Below, piece after piece: positions 3,068-15,108 of a stretch of 36,017 bases of DNA; the first letter of the stretch is position 1, and every line of letters begins with the position of its first letter. The position numbers were made by a program, and so were the translations under genes. Source of the DNA: Lewinella sp. (GTDB taxonomy: Bacteria > Bacteroidota > Bacteroidia > Chitinophagales > Saprospiraceae); the NCBI GenBank assembly GCA_020436695.1, contig JAGQXH010000005.1:1-36017 (forward strand), read 5' to 3'. The notes beneath the pieces were generated by a model. It was not told the DNA's origin. It saw only the letters and a program-made list of their open reading frames with translations, and ran no database searches.

Positions 3068-3416
3068 CCAGCGGTTTCCCGGACTGCACTACCATCAAGC
3101 TTACCATTTTTAGTAAATCCTGTTACCGAAATTAGTAGAACTCCAACCATTTCCTGTGTTTTAAAAGCAGTCGATAACCCTAAACTTTGCAGTATTGGTG
3201 ATCTTGATGGTTCATGGCGCTGACTTCGATGGACTGAGTCAGGAATAATAGCGCTAAAAGAAATCCTGCTCAAACTAAGCCCCAGTTATCTCCATTGATG
3301 CTTTGCCATGAACCTTTTGTAGAACGATGGGGAACACTATGCAAGTCCCGTTCGACATGCTGATCATTATTTTTTTCAAATATCAGGAATGTAAAATCAA
3401 ACCTAAATCAACAGTT
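3068..3416 (+). other. Intergenic region, no gene seen
   Basis: This stretch of about 350 bases separates the response regulator from the haloperoxidase. A 69-codon minus-strand frame (3064-3273) overlaps the regulator stop and has no protein-like features, so I do not call it. The frame of the haloperoxidase is open back to an ATG at 3327, but the segment 3327-3416 is poor in family-like sequence. I see no convincing promoter box or RNA structure. Confidence 0.5.
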
Positions 3417-5207
3417 ATGAACAATTTAGATTCGAGAAAACAAACCAGTCGCGAGTTAAGAGAACGGGCGGCTCGGATTGCTTACGACCGCAATAATCCT
3501 ACCCGTCAGCACCAGCCCAATGGGGATGAAGCCCTCCCCGGAAGAATGATGAGTTTTACCAAAGGACTCCTACACGACGACAAAACAGGACTGCTGGCAA
3601 GAGAAAGTGACTTCGAAGTCTTTAAGAAAAGTATCGAATCGGGTGACCCGAAAGATTTTATTGCGGTTCCGTTAGGCCCGGGTACCCATCCGGTCAGTTG
3701 GAAATCAGCCAAAGGTAATGCCATCAATGCCGACGTCCGGGCCTGGGAAAGTGCCGGCGCCGGTTTGACTTTTGACCTGCAGGGGCCGGATGCTCAATCT
3801 GTAACGATGCCTCCGGCTCCGTCGCTGGGCTCACAAGAGCTAACCGCCGAAATGGCAGAGATCTACTGCCAGGCTTTGTTAAGGGATATTCCCCTGTCCG
3901 TCTTTTTCCATTCGGGTTCAAATGATAAGGTAGAAGCCTGCCTTAGTGCTTTAAATCAATTGGACTATTTTAAGAATGGTGGAAGATCCTCCGACGGACA
4001 ACAACTCAATACCGATAATGTCTTTCGCGGATTTACTCCGGGAGATCAAAAGGGGCCTTATGTTTCTCAGTTTCTGCTCACCGGCAATAGCGGACTGAAT
4101 ACGCGGGATGCCGATGCTGAATTTCCAGCGTCTGCCGGAATGATCAATTACGGGGCATTGACCATTGATCAGCGAGTGCGTCAGGCGGCGAAGGTCAACT
4201 ACATGACGGAATGGGATGAATTCATTGATGTGCAAAACGGAGCGGACTTCAGACGCCTGGAAAAATACGAAGGGGAAAAACGCCGGTTCATTACTACCGG
4301 TCGAGATCTGGCTACCTATGTTCATTATGATGCTTTATACGAAGCCTATTTGAATGCCTGTTTACTGCTGCTGAGCGCCCCGTTGGAAACCGATGATGGG
4401 ACGGTTTCAAGATTTGATAAGGGTGTGCCTTTTCAAAAACGAGATCTTTTCGACAAGCAGGAAGGCTTTGCTCATTATGGCGGCCCGCACATTCTGACGC
4501 TCGTCACGGAAGCCGCCACCCGCGCGCTGAAAGCGGTTCGCTATCAAAAATTCAATGTGCACCGTCGCTTGCGGCCGGAAGCATTCGCTGCACGTATGGA
4601 GAAATGTGATCCGATCCTTAAGTCCGTCAAATGGGGAGATAGCGGGAAACTCAGACAAAGCTATGACGACCTGGAAAACGCCGGTATTTTCAACCTGCTC
4701 CGGGCGGAGAACGGAAAGAATTTGTTACTGCCAATGGCTTTCTGCGAAGGTTCTCCCATGCACCCCTCCTACGGAGCGGGGCACGCTACCGTGGCCGGGG
4801 CCTGTGTCACCATCCTCAAAGCCTTTTTCAACCATGAACTCTATGTAAATATCTCAGAGGATGGATCTACTTTTTCATTGGGGACCTACCCAAGCGGCTT
4901 TGCCTTTATTCCTGATGATCAGGGACAGACACTTGAAGTTGTCCAGACCGAAGATCTTAAGGTACAAGATGAACTCAACAAGTTAGCGGCCAATATTTCG
5001 ATCGGCCGGAACTGGGCCGGGGTCCATTACTACTCGGACTATAAGGATTCGCTTTTGCTCGGAGAAGAAATAGCGATCGGTATCCTCCAGGAACAATCGA
5101 TTACTTATAATAAGAAAGAGAAGTTCTTTTTAACCTTACCTAAATTCAATGGCGAGGAGATCACGATCAGCGGAGAGGCATACGCTGAACTGCTGACCGG
5201 AATTTAA
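3417..5207 (+). CDS. Vanadium-dependent haloperoxidase (bromoperoxidase-like)
   Basis: Members of this family use vanadate and hydrogen peroxide to oxidise halides, giving hypohalous species that halogenate organic compounds or disrupt signals. I chose ATG 3417 (MNNLDSRK), giving 596 residues, close to algal Corallina-type bromoperoxidases. The ATG at 3327 would add an unlikely hydrophobic 30-residue lead. The vanadate-site motifs are all in the expected order: Lys378 and Arg386 in KFNVHRRLRPE, HPSYGAGHATVAG with His456, and GRNWAGVHYYSDY with Arg531 and His537. The spacings of 8 (Lys-Arg) and 6 (Arg-His) equal those I recall for Corallina. One difference is Ala454, where the algal enzymes have the vanadate-contacting Ser of SGH. 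No signal peptide is visible with this start. A strong hairpin follows, so it is probably its own transcription unit. Confidence 0.93.
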   Translation: MNNLDSRKQTSRELRERAARIAYDRNNPTRQHQPNGDEALPGRMMSFTKGLLHDDKTGLLARESDFEVFKKSIESGDPKDFIAVPLGPGTHPVSWKSAKGNAINADVRAWESAGAGLTFDLQGPDAQSVTMPPAPSLGSQELTAEMAEIYCQALLRDIPLSVFFHSGSNDKVEACLSALNQLDYFKNGGRSSDGQQLNTDNVFRGFTPGDQKGPYVSQFLLTGNSGLNTRDADAEFPASAGMINYGALTIDQRVRQAAKVNYMTEWDEFIDVQNGADFRRLEKYEGEKRRFITTGRDLATYVHYDALYEAYLNACLLLLSAPLETDDGTVSRFDKGVPFQKRDLFDKQEGFAHYGGPHILTLVTEAATRALKAVRYQKFNVHRRLRPEAFAARMEKCDPILKSVKWGDSGKLRQSYDDLENAGIFNLLRAENGKNLLLPMAFCEGSPMHPSYGAGHATVAGACVTILKAFFNHELYVNISEDGSTFSLGTYPSGFAFIPDDQGQTLEVVQTEDLKVQDELNKLAANISIGRNWAGVHYYSDYKDSLLLGEEIAIGILQEQSITYNKKEKFFLTLPKFNGEEITISGEAYAELLTGI

Positions 5208-5533: not shown

Positions 5534-5905
5534 ATGTCTTTATCTCACCAATTTGAACAAAAACTGTTCAGTGTTCTGGGTCACGCCTTGGATGATCCGA
5601 GTTTTGCCGATGAACTTATTACTGATCCGGATGGAGCCATTAAGAGAAAAGGGCTTTTTCTGAGCGGAGCGGACTTAAAAGCAGCTCAACAATTTGTAAA
5701 AGAGATGTTAGTCGCTCGTGAAGAAGGCCAGGGAGCCGATGCTAAATTCACTCGTGCTATTTTTGCACCTGGTGGAAAGCGTCCCGGAGACTTAGCCGCT
5801 ACCCATGGGGATGTACATGGTGACGGACATGGAGATGTAAGCGTTGGTAATGTTGCGCGCTTTGATGCGCTCTTTATCAAGACTCCTTTTAAAAGTCAAC
5901 GGTAA
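5534..5905 (+). CDS. RiPP precursor peptide with NHLP-like leader and HGDx repeats
   Basis: This 123-residue protein is the likely substrate of the enzymes encoded just downstream. Residues 10-55 follow the pattern of nitrile-hydratase-like/Os1348-type leader peptides: a helix with VLGHALDDPSFADELITDPD, then a G-L-x-L turn and another helix (ADLKAAQQFV). After a charged linker comes APGG (78-81), a possible cleavage zone, and a compositionally different C-terminal part. That part contains three tandem four-residue repeats HGDV-HGDG-HGDV (91-102) and then VSVGNVARFDALFIKTPFKSQR in shortened form VSVGNVARF...KSQR. There is no Cys, which argues against lanthipeptide or sactipeptide rings. It has its own candidate promoter and is separated from the enzyme genes by a long hairpin. 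The leader assignment is by pattern memory, so the exact family is uncertain; the precursor role rests mainly on the neighbourhood. Confidence 0.68.
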   Translation: MSLSHQFEQKLFSVLGHALDDPSFADELITDPDGAIKRKGLFLSGADLKAAQQFVKEMLVAREEGQGADAKFTRAIFAPGGKRPGDLAATHGDVHGDGHGDVSVGNVARFDALFIKTPFKSQR

Positions 5906-6032
5906 CAGCGAGAATCAGTCCTCTACGGACAAGCCTGCCCGCATGTAACCAATTTTCAACCTCCAACTGATTTTGTCTCTGAGCACAAAAGGTTAGAGTA
6001 TCATCTCGTTTGCATTGCACTACGACGATGCC

Positions 6033-6076
6033 GCGCAGAAGTAGCTGTTGCATTCCTGCAATTGTTTCTTCTGCGC
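6033..6076 (+). terminator. Nested hairpin between precursor and enzyme genes
   Basis: A 9-base perfect inverted repeat (GCGCAGAAG at 6033-6041, CTTCTGCGC at 6068-6076) encloses a second short stem, TTGCA/TGCAA (6048-6052 and 6057-6061) with a TTCC loop. It lies about 130 bases after the precursor stop. In RiPP operons a structure here often makes precursor transcript exceed enzyme transcript by partial termination or processing. That role is inferred; no U-tract follows directly. Confidence 0.45.
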
Positions 6077-6091
6077 AAAATTCAACCTTTG
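6062..6091 (+). promoter_or_regulatory. Weak candidate promoter for the maturation enzymes
   Basis: TTG at 6062-6064, a 19-base spacer and AACCTTTG at 6084-6091 fit the Bacteroidota promoter pattern with one mismatch (A for T at the first -7 base). It overlaps the right arm of the hairpin. It would give a leader of about 100 bases before the ATG at 6198. With one mismatch this could be chance. Confidence 0.22.
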
Positions 6092-6197
6092 CTTTTGGAG
6101 AAATTAAACGATACGGAATACCGCTGTCATTTTGGAATTGACCGGCAAATTGTTGGTCGACACGGGGGTTGTGTGCCCAAAATCAATTACCTCCCTT

Positions 6198-7748
6198 ATG
6201 TATTTTATCAAATATAATCGAGATAATTTTGATACCATTCACAGAGTACTAAATCCGTTCCCATCCTTCCTGGACATAAAGGTTAGATCAAAATCATTGC
6301 GTTGGAATTATTCAAACCACTTGGAAAAGGACGGAAAGATCTGTCTGTTCAATAATAGTAATCTGGCGTGGGCGGTCCTTGAGGCCGAAGAACTGGCCTA
6401 TTTGCCCATTCACACCAAAGAAGAAGTTTTCATTGATGATCTGTTTGATCGGGTTCCGGTTAGCTATCATCCTGCTTTGGAGGGAATACTGATCTCCCTG
6501 TACGCCAGAGGGCTTATCCTGTTGAATAATGAGGCCTATGTCGGCAATTATATATTCGATGAAGGTGTATTGTATCATCATACCTACCTTATTGAGTTCC
6601 TGTTGACAGAGAAATGCAATATCAGGTGTTCCTATTGTTTCGCAGAGGTGGACAATCGGAAAAAAATGATGAAGGAAGATACTGCTAAAGCTATTCTGGA
6701 TAAAGTTCTGCAACTGCCCACAAATCGACTAATGATCGAATTTTCGGGGGGAGAGGTTTTCCTGAATTTCCCCACGTTTCAATTCTGTGTCGAATACCTG
6801 AAAGCGCACAAAGGGAATAAGGAGATCCTTTTAACAGCGCAAACCAACGCTATGCTCCTGAATGAGAAAATACTGACCTATTGCGAAGAGAATCAGATCC
6901 ACTTGAGTTTAACACTGGATGGGCCACAATGGATCCATGATAAACAGCGGATCGGATGGAATGGAAAAGGAACCTACCATAAAGTGATCGAAGCCATTGA
7001 GTTGCTCCAAAAAAAGAAAATGCCTTTTGGTATGATCGGTGTTATAACAGCCCATTCAGTGGATTATGCCAGAGAGATCATGGATCATTATAAAGCGTTG
7101 GGCGTGAGATCTGTAAAGCTCAACCATTGTACTCCTCAGGGGTATTCAAGGGAAGTTTGGGGCGACATTGGGATAGATGGTCATGATTATTTGAAATTCC
7201 TAAAGGAGGTTTATGCCTGGATAAAGGACCATGATGGAGCAGTAACTGAAAGCAATCTCAGTGTATTTTTCCTGAATATCTTATCAAAGACCAGCCAATA
7301 TCGCTGTACGCGCACTACTTGCCGGGCCGGATCCGAATTCCTGGTCTTTGATCCTAATGGAGATATATTTCCTTGCCCTAGGTTTAAGCACAATCCTTTA
7401 ACTCGATTGGGTAATATCGCTGATGTGCATGAAACACCGGTCAATGAACTGTATAAGCAGAACGATTTGGTCAGGGGAATTGACGAGAGAAATGTCAACA
7501 GAATCCCTATGTGCAAGGATTGTACCTGGAGAAATGCCTGCCGGGGAGGTTGCTCGTTGGAAACCTTTGAGGCTTATCACACCCTGGATCGTGAGTCTGG
7601 CATTTGCCAGTTCTATAAAGGCATCTATCCTTTTTTATTCGAGAAATTACTGGATGACGCTGAATTTATTGCCAGGCACTTTCTATCGGATAGTACCTTG
7701 GTTGGTATTCCATTTGAAGAAACAGTAGCGAGCCCGGTATCCGGTTAA
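6198..7748 (+). CDS. Radical SAM/SPASM peptide-modifying enzyme
   Basis: This enzyme binds a radical-SAM [4Fe-4S] cluster through Cys140, Cys144 and Cys147 (CNIRCSYC) and would cleave S-adenosylmethionine to start radical chemistry on the precursor. A SPASM domain follows with the classic Cys set: Cys375 (CRAGSEF), Cys393 (IFPCPRF), Cys439, Cys442, Cys448 and Cys452 (CKDCTWRNACRGGC) and Cys470, expected to hold auxiliary clusters. The GGE motif is present as SGGEVF. I prefer ATG 6198 (516 residues) over an in-frame TTG at 6132, because the 22 extra residues look non-homologous. Residues 30-120 form an N-terminal domain resembling those of RiPP SPASM maturases and may contact the leader. The gene follows the precursor and is first in the enzyme set. 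The bond it forms cannot be told from the sequence: epimerisation, cyclophane or thioether-type links are all known for relatives, though thioethers are unlikely with a Cys-free core. Confidence 0.9.
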   Translation: MYFIKYNRDNFDTIHRVLNPFPSFLDIKVRSKSLRWNYSNHLEKDGKICLFNNSNLAWAVLEAEELAYLPIHTKEEVFIDDLFDRVPVSYHPALEGILISLYARGLILLNNEAYVGNYIFDEGVLYHHTYLIEFLLTEKCNIRCSYCFAEVDNRKKMMKEDTAKAILDKVLQLPTNRLMIEFSGGEVFLNFPTFQFCVEYLKAHKGNKEILLTAQTNAMLLNEKILTYCEENQIHLSLTLDGPQWIHDKQRIGWNGKGTYHKVIEAIELLQKKKMPFGMIGVITAHSVDYAREIMDHYKALGVRSVKLNHCTPQGYSREVWGDIGIDGHDYLKFLKEVYAWIKDHDGAVTESNLSVFFLNILSKTSQYRCTRTTCRAGSEFLVFDPNGDIFPCPRFKHNPLTRLGNIADVHETPVNELYKQNDLVRGIDERNVNRIPMCKDCTWRNACRGGCSLETFEAYHTLDRESGICQFYKGIYPFLFEKLLDDAEFIARHFLSDSTLVGIPFEETVASPVSG

Positions 7749-7794
7749 TGATCACTACGGAATTCCTGTTTGCCATATTTCAAAAGTATGCTTT

Positions 7795-9861
7795 ATGAAA
7801 TTAAAGCGAGTTACCATATCAACGGCTCTGATTGTGCCGGAGGAGGAAGCAGAGGATCCAAGAGAAAGGATCCAGTTAGGCCCGCTGTGTATAGCCGCCT
7901 CCCTAAGGCTTCATGGCTGTGAAGTTGATTTTGTCAATTTGAACGAATTTAGCCCCAAATTTCAAAGTAATTCGATCCTCCTGGATCAGGAGGCTTTTAT
8001 TCAGTATGCCGCACAACAGATTGTGGGAAAAGGGAATCGGGTGATCGGCTTAGGGTCAATTTGTAGTTCTTACAGAATTACGTTGCGACTTATTCAGCAG
8101 CTCAAAAAATTAGCACCCGAGGCCTTTGTATTTATGGGAGGACCGCAGGCTACCGCCACCGCAAAACAGACCTTGGAAATAGTCCCGCAATTAGATGCTA
8201 TACTAAAGGGAGAAGCTGATTTTTCTATTTTGGAGTTGGTGAATGAGGTTTTTGGTTCCCGCAATTTTGAACGGGTTAGGGGTTTGGTGTGGAGACGCGG
8301 GACGCAAGAGATCGTCACCAACGAATCAAGTCCGGTCATCGAGGACCTCGATAAGTTGCCTATGCCGGCCTACGATCTTTATCCGAGATCTTCCTATGCA
8401 GGAGGCATTGCTATTGATGCCGGTCGCGGTTGTCCCTTCGGGTGTACGTTTTGTTCTACCAACGAATTTTTTAGTCGCCGGTTCCGCATGAAATCAGGTT
8501 TGAGACTGGTCGAGGAAATAGACTTCCTGCACCAGGAATACGGTACTACACAATTCTCGTTGACCCACGACCTGTTTACCACTAATCCAAAACTCGTTAG
8601 ACAGATCTGTACTACGTTTCAGGAAGAGATAAAATTCGAATCATTTGAGTGGACTGCCAGTGCGCGTATCGATTCAATGAAAGATGATCTTACGGAGATC
8701 ATGGCAAAATCCGGGTGCACAAATCTGTTTTTTGGCGTAGAATCCGGATCGGCCAGCATCCAGAAAACCATTAAGAAAAAACTAAGTGTTCACAAGGTAC
8801 TGCCGGTTTTAGAAGAGTGTGCCGCACATTCCATAGAGTCGACCGCATCGATAATCATTGGATATCCGGAGGAGACCTATGAAGACATCCGGGATTCGAT
8901 TGAGTTGGCCATAAACGCTATTCGCATACCAAATGTGAAGAGTCAGATCCATTTGCTGGTGCCCTTACCCGGTACACCACTGTCCATATTAAACGCAGAT
9001 GCTTTAGTGTATTCGGATCTCTGCTCCAACATCGCTACTACTGGAGGCAGTGAAATGACCGACCAGGAAAGAACTTTCATCAGTGGAAATAAGGAACTCT
9101 TCACTCAGCACTTTTATGTGCCCAATGATCTTTTCGCACGGGAGACTTTATACCATGTGGCCCAGCTAACTTTTTTTGGAACTTCCTACCATAAGTATAC
9201 ATGCCTGGCTATCCAAAAGATTGCCGGGGAATTCACTGCTTTTGCCTTCCGTTGGGCCGATTGGGCCTGTGAGCATATTGATACTCCCAATTACCTGTTG
9301 GAAGAATTTTACCGGGGAGATGTATTTTGTGTCCAATTTGAACAATTTACGAAAGCCTATTTCTCCAGGGAATTCCCCGACAGCCTCTATATTATTGAGT
9401 GTGCTATTAATTTTGACCAGGAGGTCCTTACACTTTTAAGAGAAGACTATCAACGTACAGAAAGGGAATATTCTCCTGTCTTCGACCTGGAATCGAAAAT
9501 GCGCTTAAATCCTTTACTGAAGATCAATTATTTCCCGATAGATCTGGATGAGCTACTTCCCGGACTACAGAAAGATCAGGCTTTACCCGACAGATTGCCT
9601 CTGCCCATACCCTATCTGTTCTCCAGAATTGGTCGGGGCAGGATCGTCTACACTCCTTTGGAGCGATATATGGCAGTTGTTCTGGAACAGTGTACCGGAA
9701 ATATCTCTCTGAGGCGGATACTTGATCACACCGAACTCTCAACGGATGAAAGAAGAACGATGATAACCCGGCTTGCCCTCATGATCTCCCAGAAAATGCT
9801 TATTCCAACGGTCCCTCATGGATCCACTTACGATAAAGTGGAGTTGGAATCTTTGCTCTAG
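7795..9861 (+). CDS. B12-binding-type radical SAM enzyme, RiPP-associated
   Basis: The 688-residue product has an N-terminal cobalamin-binding-like Rossmann domain (about 1-170, including IGLGSICSSYR and VFMGGPQATA). A radical SAM domain follows with Cys213, Cys217 and Cys220 in GRGCPFGCTFCST, then a long C-terminal part. Relatives with this order are often C-methyltransferases, and a group of similar length occurs with NHLP-type precursors. The typical DxHxxG cobalamin-ligand motif is not obvious, so B12 may be bound base-off without a His ligand or not at all. Residues about 620-675 (LERYMAVVLEQCTGNISLRRIL...) resemble a small winged-helix module that could recognise the leader, but this is inference. 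The gene starts 46 bases after the SPASM enzyme. C-methylation of the core is the leading guess; other radical rearrangements are possible. Confidence 0.85.
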   Translation: MKLKRVTISTALIVPEEEAEDPRERIQLGPLCIAASLRLHGCEVDFVNLNEFSPKFQSNSILLDQEAFIQYAAQQIVGKGNRVIGLGSICSSYRITLRLIQQLKKLAPEAFVFMGGPQATATAKQTLEIVPQLDAILKGEADFSILELVNEVFGSRNFERVRGLVWRRGTQEIVTNESSPVIEDLDKLPMPAYDLYPRSSYAGGIAIDAGRGCPFGCTFCSTNEFFSRRFRMKSGLRLVEEIDFLHQEYGTTQFSLTHDLFTTNPKLVRQICTTFQEEIKFESFEWTASARIDSMKDDLTEIMAKSGCTNLFFGVESGSASIQKTIKKKLSVHKVLPVLEECAAHSIESTASIIIGYPEETYEDIRDSIELAINAIRIPNVKSQIHLLVPLPGTPLSILNADALVYSDLCSNIATTGGSEMTDQERTFISGNKELFTQHFYVPNDLFARETLYHVAQLTFFGTSYHKYTCLAIQKIAGEFTAFAFRWADWACEHIDTPNYLLEEFYRGDVFCVQFEQFTKAYFSREFPDSLYIIECAINFDQEVLTLLREDYQRTEREYSPVFDLESKMRLNPLLKINYFPIDLDELLPGLQKDQALPDRLPLPIPYLFSRIGRGRIVYTPLERYMAVVLEQCTGNISLRRILDHTELSTDERRTMITRLALMISQKMLIPTVPHGSTYDKVELESLL

Positions 9862-9891
9862 GAAAGAACGGTAGGCATCAATCAACGATAT

Positions 9892-10626
9892 ATGGTAAGG
9901 CACATCTCCTCCAGGCTGGAAACGCTATTGCTGACTTTTTACCCCTACCTGGAAGAACCAAAAATCGATCTCTTAGACCTGGCGGCCGTTATACTGAGAC
10001 ACCCTCTGGCGTGCCTGAACATTAAACAATCTGCTCTGGAACCCTCGATCTTTAGAAAGCTTGTGGCTTGCTCTATGGCGTTTGGTTATCACATTTCGGA
10101 TCTAAACGGGAATATTGGGCATCCAGATGAATACCAAAATGCGGCCATACGACAGACGCATGTGCCCGTCTTGATCTTTGCGAGACAAAGAGCGCATTTG
10201 GAGAGATTAGTGCTGCAACACCAGCTATTGCAACCCAGGGGATTTGAGCATTGGGCCCGATATCTTGGTATGGAGCTTGCCTATCCGGATTGCTGTGTCG
10301 ACCATTATGTTGCTAAGGTAAAGCAACCCTCTGACAGGAATGATTTCTGGCGCGATGTAAAAAGTAAGGTGATCACCCATGAAGAAATAATACTTGGATT
10401 TGCCCCTTGTTCTTTTAGTTGCGAAAAAGCTCAGAATGAGATCTTTAGAAGGTTATTGGTCGCTCATAAGATAGGAGTGCTTAATGTCGAAGTAGTTAAA
10501 AGGTGGTTGCTGAAAAAAGGCAAAGAAAACTACTGGCAATTGATCGATACTTCCGAACCGATTGTCGATCTGAGTGAGAAACTTATAGGGTTTAAGATCC
10601 CACTCGACTTAACTAATTATACCTGA
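9892..10626 (+). CDS. Cysteine-motif (DUF483-like) protein of the RiPP locus
   Basis: This 244-residue protein starts 30 bases after the B12-type enzyme. The two notable sites are LAYPDCCVDHY (Cys134, Cys135) and GFAPCSFSCEKA (Cys173, Cys177). This pairing of a Y-P-x-C-C site with a downstream P-C-S-x-x-C resembles the motif layout I recall for DUF483-type proteins, whose role is poorly known. The four cysteines could bind a metal or an iron-sulfur cluster. No signal peptide or membrane segment is seen, so it should be cytoplasmic. Its place between two modifying enzymes suggests an accessory or modifying role in peptide maturation. The family name is tentative. Confidence 0.65.
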   Translation: MVRHISSRLETLLLTFYPYLEEPKIDLLDLAAVILRHPLACLNIKQSALEPSIFRKLVACSMAFGYHISDLNGNIGHPDEYQNAAIRQTHVPVLIFARQRAHLERLVLQHQLLQPRGFEHWARYLGMELAYPDCCVDHYVAKVKQPSDRNDFWRDVKSKVITHEEIILGFAPCSFSCEKAQNEIFRRLLVAHKIGVLNVEVVKRWLLKKGKENYWQLIDTSEPIVDLSEKLIGFKIPLDLTNYT

Positions 10627-10641
10627 AAATTCACCTGTCAC

Positions 10642-11508
10642 ATGAATGATTTTCTGATTGATTGGTCAAGAATGGCCAGACCGCAAAATGACGGCTATGA
10701 TTCGCAGATCGTTCTTCAGTTTGCAGAAGAAAAGGGATTTAGACGTAAAACTACCGATGGCTATAAAACAATATTTGAAGATCGGATCGCTATTCGTCAC
10801 TGGGAAAAAAATACCGAAGTAGATGAATGGGCAGAGCAGGGAGATCTGGAACATCCGAATTTTGACATTGCTGCTGATCTGTTAAGGATCTGGCCGGAAG
10901 GTTTCAATCAGTTTGTTCGCTTAATGGATACGATCTATCCCATGACCAAAGTGAAAGTTTCCACCGAGGCCTTCCCCAATTTAGAACATTCCAATACCCC
11001 TTTGGTTCTTGGGTCTTCCTCGCATTCGGAAGGGCGTCGGTTCGGGTCGATGTATGTTACTACTTATGATCCGATTGGAACTGCACAGGCCTTTGTTCAT
11101 GAGCTTGCACACCAGAAGCTGCGGGCACTGGGCTTTCAGGTTGAGCAGGCAAATATATTGGTTTGTAATTCACCGGATGAACTGTTTGAAAGTCCGGTCA
11201 GGAAAGATAAACTTCGTCCGATGACCGCAATTGTACATGCTACATATTCCTGGATCTACATCACTGAGTTAAATGTCCATTGGGTCCAAGATGCATTAAC
11301 CGCCGGGAAAGAAAAGGTGGTTATTGATCTGTATGCCCACTATCTTTACAAAAACCTGCCCAGACTATACGACGGCATTAAGCTGATTAGTGAACATGCA
11401 ATAGTTGATAAAGCGGGCGAAAAATTTTTCACCAGTCTACTGGATTGGTACAACGAGATAGTGGAAAGGGTTCAACAATTCGAGGTTTTGAAAGTAAGTA
11501 ACGTTTAG
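10642..11508 (+). CDS. HExxH-type putative peptide hydroxylase / modification protein
   Basis: This 288-residue cytoplasmic protein carries VHELAHQKLRALG with His153, Glu154 and His157. A further His213 (ELNVHW) is placed to be a third metal ligand. This layout matches the 'HExxH motif-containing peptide modification protein' group found in RiPP clusters; some members are now described as 2-oxoglutarate-dependent iron enzymes that beta-hydroxylate precursor peptides. An ordinary zinc protease is the alternative, but the sequence around the motif (AHQKLRALG) and the neighbours favour modification. It begins 15 bases after the preceding gene and ends the + strand RiPP block. Asp or His in the HGDx repeats would be plausible targets, but that is speculation. 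Confidence 0.8.
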   Translation: MNDFLIDWSRMARPQNDGYDSQIVLQFAEEKGFRRKTTDGYKTIFEDRIAIRHWEKNTEVDEWAEQGDLEHPNFDIAADLLRIWPEGFNQFVRLMDTIYPMTKVKVSTEAFPNLEHSNTPLVLGSSSHSEGRRFGSMYVTTYDPIGTAQAFVHELAHQKLRALGFQVEQANILVCNSPDELFESPVRKDKLRPMTAIVHATYSWIYITELNVHWVQDALTAGKEKVVIDLYAHYLYKNLPRLYDGIKLISEHAIVDKAGEKFFTSLLDWYNEIVERVQQFEVLKVSNV

Positions 11509-12014
11509 AGCCCACCTAAAAACCATCCGTTGGTCTGGGAATGTCTATTTGTGGAACCTCATTTCATCATTTCCTCCCCTAATAGCGCTGCTGCGAAGCT
11601 CGAAAATGACTTTGATAGAACCTTGATTTAGCCATTTTTGACCTTGAAAACAGTTGCTGGATAGGCTCTTCGCTTAGTATTTTATCAGTAGAGCACCCAT
11701 ATGCTCCGACCTGCTGTCGGCGTTTCAGGTTATCTTTTTCTCCGAAAGAAATTTTAGAGATGATCTGAATAATTGAAATTTCATTCTTCCCATCTCTCTA
11801 ATCAAAGGATCGGCTCTTTCACTCAGCATACCGGCTGGTTGACGCAAGCCTACTTTCCCTATCAACGTAATCCGCCTACATTTGCTTCATAATGGCCCGC
11901 TAACGGGGATGTATACTCGTCGCCTGATCACTACATTTGAGCGGAAAAGGCGACCGCTATATCATGTGCCGGGACCTGAAACCCGAAATTAATACCTAAA
12001 CCAGACCCATTATC
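11509..12014 (+). other. Intergenic region after the RiPP block, no gene seen
   Basis: About 500 bases hold no frame longer than about 27 codons that looks protein-like. A small 5-bp hairpin (CCGAC/GTCGG, 11706-11720) is too weak to call. A -7-type box near 11932 is listed separately. No RNA gene was recognised. The RiPP operon probably ends here, and no protease or transporter gene follows. Confidence 0.5.
11932..11939 (+). promoter_or_regulatory. TAnnTTTG-type -7 box upstream of the S74 protein gene
   Basis: TACATTTG is an exact match to the Bacteroidota -7 consensus, 75 bases before the ATG at 12015. No TTG is found at the expected -33 distance, so support is partial and chance occurrence is possible. 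Confidence 0.3.
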
Positions 12015-14897: not shown

Positions 14898-14938
14898 GTT
14901 CGATCTGGTTTTGGTTTTAGATTTTTTAAAGCAAGTTC

Positions 14939-15087
14939 CCAGTCGTAAGTCAATAGTCATCAGTCAAAGTGGTAAGTGCTGATATGTAGTGCAGCAGGGC
15001 GAAATTATCGGAAGCGAAGCCCTCATTTTATATTGGGTTAGGGCAATTCTCTTCATTTTAATGTTGACCCGCTTGACTTACGACTGG
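14939..15087. repeat. Inverted repeat flanking a 119-bp spacer (MITE/REP-like)
   Basis: CCAGTCGTAAGTCAA at 14939-14953 is exactly complementary to TTGACTTACGACTGG at 15073-15087, a 15-base perfect inverted repeat around 119 bases. The interior has further AGGGC/GCCCT pairs. A tandem GACTGGCA repeat sits at 15082-15097, overlapping the right arm. It fills the otherwise unusual 211-base gap between the two collagen-like genes. It may be an intergenic repeat element that inserted in the operon, or an RNA processing structure. Confidence 0.5.
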
Positions 15088-15108
15088 CAGACTGGCAACT
15101 TAAAATAT

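Follow-up and report, generated by a model that had tools for sequence, protein, structure and literature searches.

Several described systems come close to the locus reported here. Known 3-CyFEs link an aromatic side chain to the Cβ atom two residues further on, joining Trp or Phe to Asn, Asp, Arg or Ser, Tyr to Asp or Arg, and His to Ala or Arg (PMC11002830). The C2(His)–Cβ(Ala/Arg) links are made by HaaB/YhhB, Tyr–Asp links by YxdB and Trp–Asn/Asp links by OscB (PMC11002830). The ChlB/ChlH pair of Chlorogloeopsis (8s5f, 9gm3) joins a radical SAM cross-linker and an aKG-HExxH hydroxylase that act on a cyclophane peptide; ChlBH hydroxylates Asp and His once the cyclophane is present (PMC12636437). 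PosA and PflA are Os1348-type RiPP precursors that are processed by an aKG-HEXXH enzyme in Pseudomonas, and PflC/PosC cleave the C-terminal tail off such Os1348-leader precursors (PMC12636437). Methylation of the Tyr Cβ atom to give β-methyltyrosine has been described for ApyD (PMC10635010).

We analyzed a stretch of 36 017 nucleotides from Lewinella sp. (contig JAGQXH010000005.1; the window), in which a putative precursor gene (A) is followed by four enzyme genes (B–E). This is very probably a RiPP locus, and a triceptide-type RiPP with added oxidation and methylation is the best explanation of its genes, although we hold it at about even confidence. As in ChlB/ChlH, a candidate radical SAM cross-linker accompanies an aKG-HExxH enzyme; in the window these are two separate genes, with an added B12-dependent radical SAM enzyme, a DUF483-like protein and an Os1348-type leader. 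The pairing of a probable Os1348-type precursor with an aKG-HEXXH enzyme is shared with PflA–D/PosA–D, which differ in having an MNIO-nitroreductase and a GNAT protein, no radical SAM enzyme, and a poly-Gln/ARMD core rather than HGD; neither an MNIO-nitroreductase nor a GNAT protein was found among the scanned neighbors of A. The triceptides/3-CyFEs (OscB, XncB, YxdB, HaaB, YhhB) likewise have a SPASM radical SAM gene beside a precursor with aromatic-X-X motifs, whereas B falls below all of their family cut-offs and the window has extra enzymes. C resembles ApyD, the RRE-containing B12 radical SAM enzyme of the aminopyruvatide cluster, but no P450, MNIO or methyltransferase was seen in the window, the precursor is free of Tyr and C reaches under half the ApyD cut-off. 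Among named models, B matches HxsB of the HXS system best, and both targets have regularly spaced His residues; however, HxsA, HxsC and HxsD were not seen beside B in neighbor scans and B scores half the cut-off. The five-gene set probably represents a new branch within a known modified-peptide class.

Organization of the locus

As the preliminary description stated, a precursor-like ORF and four enzyme genes lie head to tail and in this order on the plus strand between positions 5534 and 11508 of the window. The features, including the upstream neighbor, are as follows.

3327–5207, plus strand: vanadium-dependent haloperoxidase (PDB 5lpc, E = 7e-151), a neighbor not claimed as part of the locus
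5534–5905, plus strand: A, putative precursor of 123 residues, with an Os1348/NHLP-type leader (residues ~8–54), GG at 80–81 and an HGD core (91–101)
6132–7748, plus strand: B, radical SAM/SPASM peptide maturase with a seven-Cys SPASM domain (Pfam Radical_SAM, SPASM)
7795–9861, plus strand: C, cobalamin-dependent radical SAM enzyme, ApyD-like, probable C-methyltransferase (NF050148; Pfam B12-binding, Radical_SAM)
9892–10626, plus strand: D, DUF483-like protein (PF04467) with a YPxCC ... PCxxxC four-Cys signature
10642–11508, plus strand: E, aKG-HExxH-type peptide hydroxylase by family (HELAH; TIGR04267, ChlH profile match)

The short gaps described between the genes hold for B–C, C–D and D–E (46, 30 and 15 bp) but not for A–B, where the gap of 226 bp means that the two are not tightly coupled; B, C, D and E look like a single operon, with A separate. 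The start of B at TTG 6132 is doubtful, the first ATG being at 6198. The ORF lists of the window, part of which was family-scanned, show no protease or exporter, as had been reported for the neighborhood, but four full-length C39-type ABC exporters are encoded on other contigs of the genome. An Rfam scan of the window gave no match.

The precursor

Residues 11–50 of A match NF038399 (Os1348 family, NHLP clan) with an E value of 1.1e-6 and 28.6 bits, below the curated cut-off of 40. This weak but real match of the first half of the protein agrees with the NHLP-like leader proposed earlier. A also matches the solved 85-residue 'nitrile hydratase alpha' chain 6lk7 (E = 9e-4), which we take to be the Pseudomonas Os17 leader structure, and a genome-wide scan found A to be the sole Os1348-type leader of its genome. 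Cys, Tyr and Trp are absent from the protein, and residues 91–101 read HGD-V-HGD-G-HGD (HGD at 91, 95 and 99), so the core is indeed Cys-free and rich in His and Asp. Of 200 000 shuffled versions of the 42-residue tail, one had three HGD units, which places these units beyond what composition explains. The GG pair ahead of the core is a possible C39 cleavage site; that the C39 exporters serve A is a guess.

We consider it improbable that there is no RiPP pathway here at all, that is, that A is a small folded nitrile-hydratase-α-like protein and the enzymes act on another substrate, or that the cluster is a decaying remnant. The wide A–B gap, the doubtful start of B and the unrelated precursors of the homologous enzyme operons (see below) would fit such a reading, but none of the four enzyme frames is interrupted, each keeps its catalytic motifs, and the enzymes belong to peptide-modifying families; A, for its part, has a repeat-type tail and adjoins the enzyme genes, and no other Os1348-like ORF turned up in its genome.

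The radical SAM enzymes

B contains a CxxxCxxC motif (Cys162, Cys166 and Cys169) and seven SPASM Cys residues, and both the Pfam Radical_SAM and SPASM domains score above cut-off, confirming that it is a full seven-Cys SPASM enzyme. Its best named NCBIfam models, all under cut-off, are HxsB (187 bits versus a cut-off of 370) and the anaerobic sulfatase maturase. The cyclophane-maturase models are also below cut-off, with 113 bits versus 445 for YhhB, 98 versus 310 for GrrM/OscB, and lower scores for XyeB and AmcB. Among solved structures, anSME and 5wgg come nearest.

These leading models and structures, together with a core rich in the metal-binding residues His and Asp, make it possible, if doubtful, that the product is a RiPP on which B carries out another radical chemistry (epimerization, or backbone or side-chain oxidation like that of the sulfatase-maturase/HxsB branch), the HGD units binding metal in a metallophore-like peptide decorated with hydroxyl and methyl groups. 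Two observations argue the other way: A has no Cys for thioethers, and precursors of related enzymes, though different from one another, show the aromatic-x-x spacing again, as cyclophane motifs would.

C scores above cut-off for the Pfam B12-binding and Radical_SAM domains, in keeping with its first assignment as a B12-type radical SAM enzyme. NF050148 (ApyD) is its best model by far (343 bits, the next model reaching 125), under an equivalog cut-off of 750. B12 radical SAM loci of S. meliloti and Mesorhizobium were set aside as not representing this system, since they have two radical SAM genes and no D or E. The S. meliloti plasmid pRmeGR4a carries another two-radical-SAM cluster (L019, 5140–10583), consisting of a PqqD-like small protein, a SPASM radical SAM enzyme, an ApyD-like B12 radical SAM enzyme, a decarboxylase/racemase-like protein and a CPBP protease.

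The DUF483-like protein and the HExxH enzyme

D, first noted as a paired-Cys, DUF483-like protein, matches PF04467 (DUF483) with 33.4 bits, above the gathering cut-off of 25. It shares 18 invariant alignment columns with its eight operon homologs, including YPxCC, N-x-F-x-R, a His and PCxxxC. The AF2 model of D has a pLDDT of 46. The homolog from L024 was modeled with a pLDDT of 83, and a fold search with this model returned nothing convincing among solved structures, the best being 2guk with a Z score of 7.7, in the common range of the tool. The start of the long homologs of D, NHLP-like in appearance, gave no match in a family scan. DUF483 also occurs in a methanogen.

E, already recognized as a HExxH protein, has the motif HELAH and scores 52.5 bits against TIGR04267 (aKG-HExxH; curated cut-off 40), which makes it probably a hydroxylase rather than a protease. 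A protease role was set aside, as E belongs to the aKG-HExxH peptide β-hydroxylases. The residues invariant among E and its operon homologs are His153, Glu154 and His157 of the HExxH motif, Ser127, His128, Arg187, Asp189, Arg192 and Pro193. A profile of the E family matches ChlH (PDB 8s5f) with an E value of 1.4e-13.

We think it rather unlikely that E is, instead of or besides an Asp/His β-hydroxylase, an oxidative cleavage enzyme that trims a C-terminal tail by aKG-dependent backbone oxidation. PflC/PosC do remove the tail of Os1348-leader precursors (PMC12636437), and A combines a leader of the Os1348 type with an additional tail beyond its HGD units; against this, A lacks ARMD and poly-Gln, and the operon homologs of E, like ChlH, accompany cyclophane-motif precursors. 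Assignment of E as a peptide hydroxylase is the preferred reading.

Homologous operons

A plasmid search with B led to a Paracoccus yeei locus in which a DUF483-like, a SPASM, a HExxH (TIGR04267, 90 bits) and a further protein stand behind a repeat protein. B is 31% identical to the P. yeei SPASM enzyme over 391 residues, and the Nitrosospira homolog of the further protein weakly resembles 2OG-Fe(II) oxygenases. With two SPASM sequences, 84 980 species genomes were then scanned using exact short motifs, so that the loci found are a lower bound. At least eight loci have homologs of D and B, from Pseudomonadota (four from Nitrosospira/Nitrosovibrio and that of P. yeei), Nitrospirota (one Nitrospira MAG) and Acidobacteriota (two). 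An E homolog is present in seven; the contig of the eighth (L029) stops short of E and the oxygenase. The genes follow the order precursor, D, B, E, oxygenase.

The preliminary description had linked the precursor role of A to its occurrence at homologous enzyme loci, and on this point the outcome is mixed without being fatal to that role. The Os1348 leader is absent from all eight operons, as is the B12 radical SAM enzyme, but a His-containing repeat precursor of their own stands at the operon head wherever this is intact (L024, L025, L027, L028, L029, L030 and L032). The seven intact precursors, from three phyla, each contain four copies of the 20-residue unit HVNSGPPGFVNGGGHANFDP, letter for letter; the L026 precursor is cut by the contig edge and retains the matching fragment GHANFDP. 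The sequence between the units differs, which indicates strong selection on the unit, and the units contain [HF]-x-N motifs (HVN/FVN/HAN), with three possible sites in the unit of the Nitrosospira/Nitrosovibrio operon. A literature text search for the string GPPGFVN gave no match. Similarity of this precursor type to GrrA/OscA, a triceptide precursor, is weak (E = 0.0016, below the cut-off).

An Acidobacteriota profile search identified a second setting, with two tandem DUF483-like proteins, a related HxsB-like SPASM enzyme and a protein whose tail carries HDRD repeats (GGHDREANHDRDSHDRDVHDRDVNREPAGHDREAAHDRESGHDRDL).

L046, 8234–12670, minus strand: HDRD system of genome G991 (Acidobacteriota), SPASM enzyme at 284 bits versus the HxsB cut-off of 370

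This appears to be a cousin of the HXS system built on His-Asp-Arg. A tree built from 23 radical SAM proteins places B as the sister of the eight-member SPASM clade (SH-aLRT 87) and the HDRD-system enzyme one group further out. Support for joining B with the D/E clade is moderate, and the branches, including that of B, are long; the tree favors this placement but does not prove it. Since DUF483-like proteins accompany these SPASM maturases in three different precursor settings, we lean toward regarding DUF483 as their true partner.

The exact set of the window (Os1348 leader, SPASM, B12 radical SAM, DUF483, HExxH) was found nowhere else by genome and profile searches and the motif scan. Searches with D in 395 Bacteroidota genomes and 395 genomes of the class gave no further locus, and those with PF04467 in 60 relatives and with D in 359 Pseudomonadota gave none beyond the known ones. 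Neither plasmids, searched with A, D and E, nor viral contigs, searched with D, yielded a match. Nine of 378 genomes of the order match the HExxH family, including that of the window; in the other eight, blastp of the retrieved stretches found no homolog of D or B.

Proposed pathway

From the gene content, the families with their conserved residues and the co-occurrence of B, D and E homologs, we infer the following chemical steps, their order and the route of export. The enzymes would bind the Os1348-type leader of A. In each HGD unit B would join the His imidazole to the β-carbon of the Asp two residues on, giving at most three cyclophanes, each with a mass change of −2.016 Da; the chances that B forms cyclophanes seem to us evenly balanced. 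E would place β-hydroxyl groups on Asp and/or His (+15.995 Da each), probably after cyclophane formation, a step that homology makes fairly likely. A similar degree of confidence attaches to the addition by C of one or more carbon-bound methyl groups (+14.016 Da each), the target of which would be Phe, His or an aliphatic residue because A has no Tyr. D may hold a metal or Fe–S site through its four Cys residues and assist B as a partner or act as an extra modifying enzyme; its role is the least certain part of the proposal. Finally, a C39 exporter encoded elsewhere could cut after the GG pair (residue 81), releasing a 42-residue product of 4472.29 Da when unmodified.

The aromatic-to-Cβ spacing and the precedents of ChlBH and ApyD are the grounds for assigning His–Asp links to B, hydroxylation to E, methylation to C and assistance of B to D. 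The aromatic-X-X spacing fits HGD, HVN, FVN, HAN and HDR alike. The motifs that PMC11002830 names do not include HGD, and His-x-Asp cyclophanes are not named in the literature cited. The points against the cyclophane reading are that B is under every cyclophane-maturase equivalog cut-off, that D and E are only 16–26% identical to their operon homologs and that A and B are 226 bp apart. With the Os1348 leader, the ApyD-like C and the aKG-HExxH enzyme E, a peptide with C-methyl groups, hydroxyl groups and radical-made cross-links, as first suggested, is still the reading that homology supports best.

More tentatively, we propose both that DUF483-like four-Cys proteins are an unrecognized partner or enzyme of a broad SPASM family acting on His-rich repeats (HVN/FVN/HAN, HDR, HGD) and that the window encodes a new triceptide with hydroxylated, C-methylated His–Asp cyclophanes. 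If so, several metalloenzymes would act on one short His/Asp tail in this peptide class, and DUF483 would gain a first testable role. Ammonia oxidizers, Nitrospira, Acidobacteriota and Paracoccus would share an operon family with an invariant 20-residue unit, the conservation of which implies a fixed, selected product.

Genomic surroundings

The haloperoxidase gene ends 326 bp upstream of A on the same strand; its product may halogenate the peptide or be unrelated to it. A run of large genes occupies 13680–34259 on the minus strand (glycine-rich collagen-like proteins and proteins of 1456 and 1093 residues), with a G+C content of about 0.50–0.54 versus 0.43–0.46 for the RiPP genes. In a DNA comparison of the flanks with a same-genus genome, matches were limited to the S74 gene downstream and a dispersed repeat, and no empty site could be recognized. 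A MITE-like dispersed repeat of ~163 bp lies at 11507–11669, with terminal inverted repeats AGAGCCYAYCC...GGATAGGCTCT and at least seven copies in a same-genus genome (G395); gene E takes the end of its TAG stop codon from the first bases of this repeat. A second dispersed repeat of ~170 bp, at ~14934–15100, has ends like CAGTCGTAAGTC / GACTTACGACTG and is present in several copies in its own genome.
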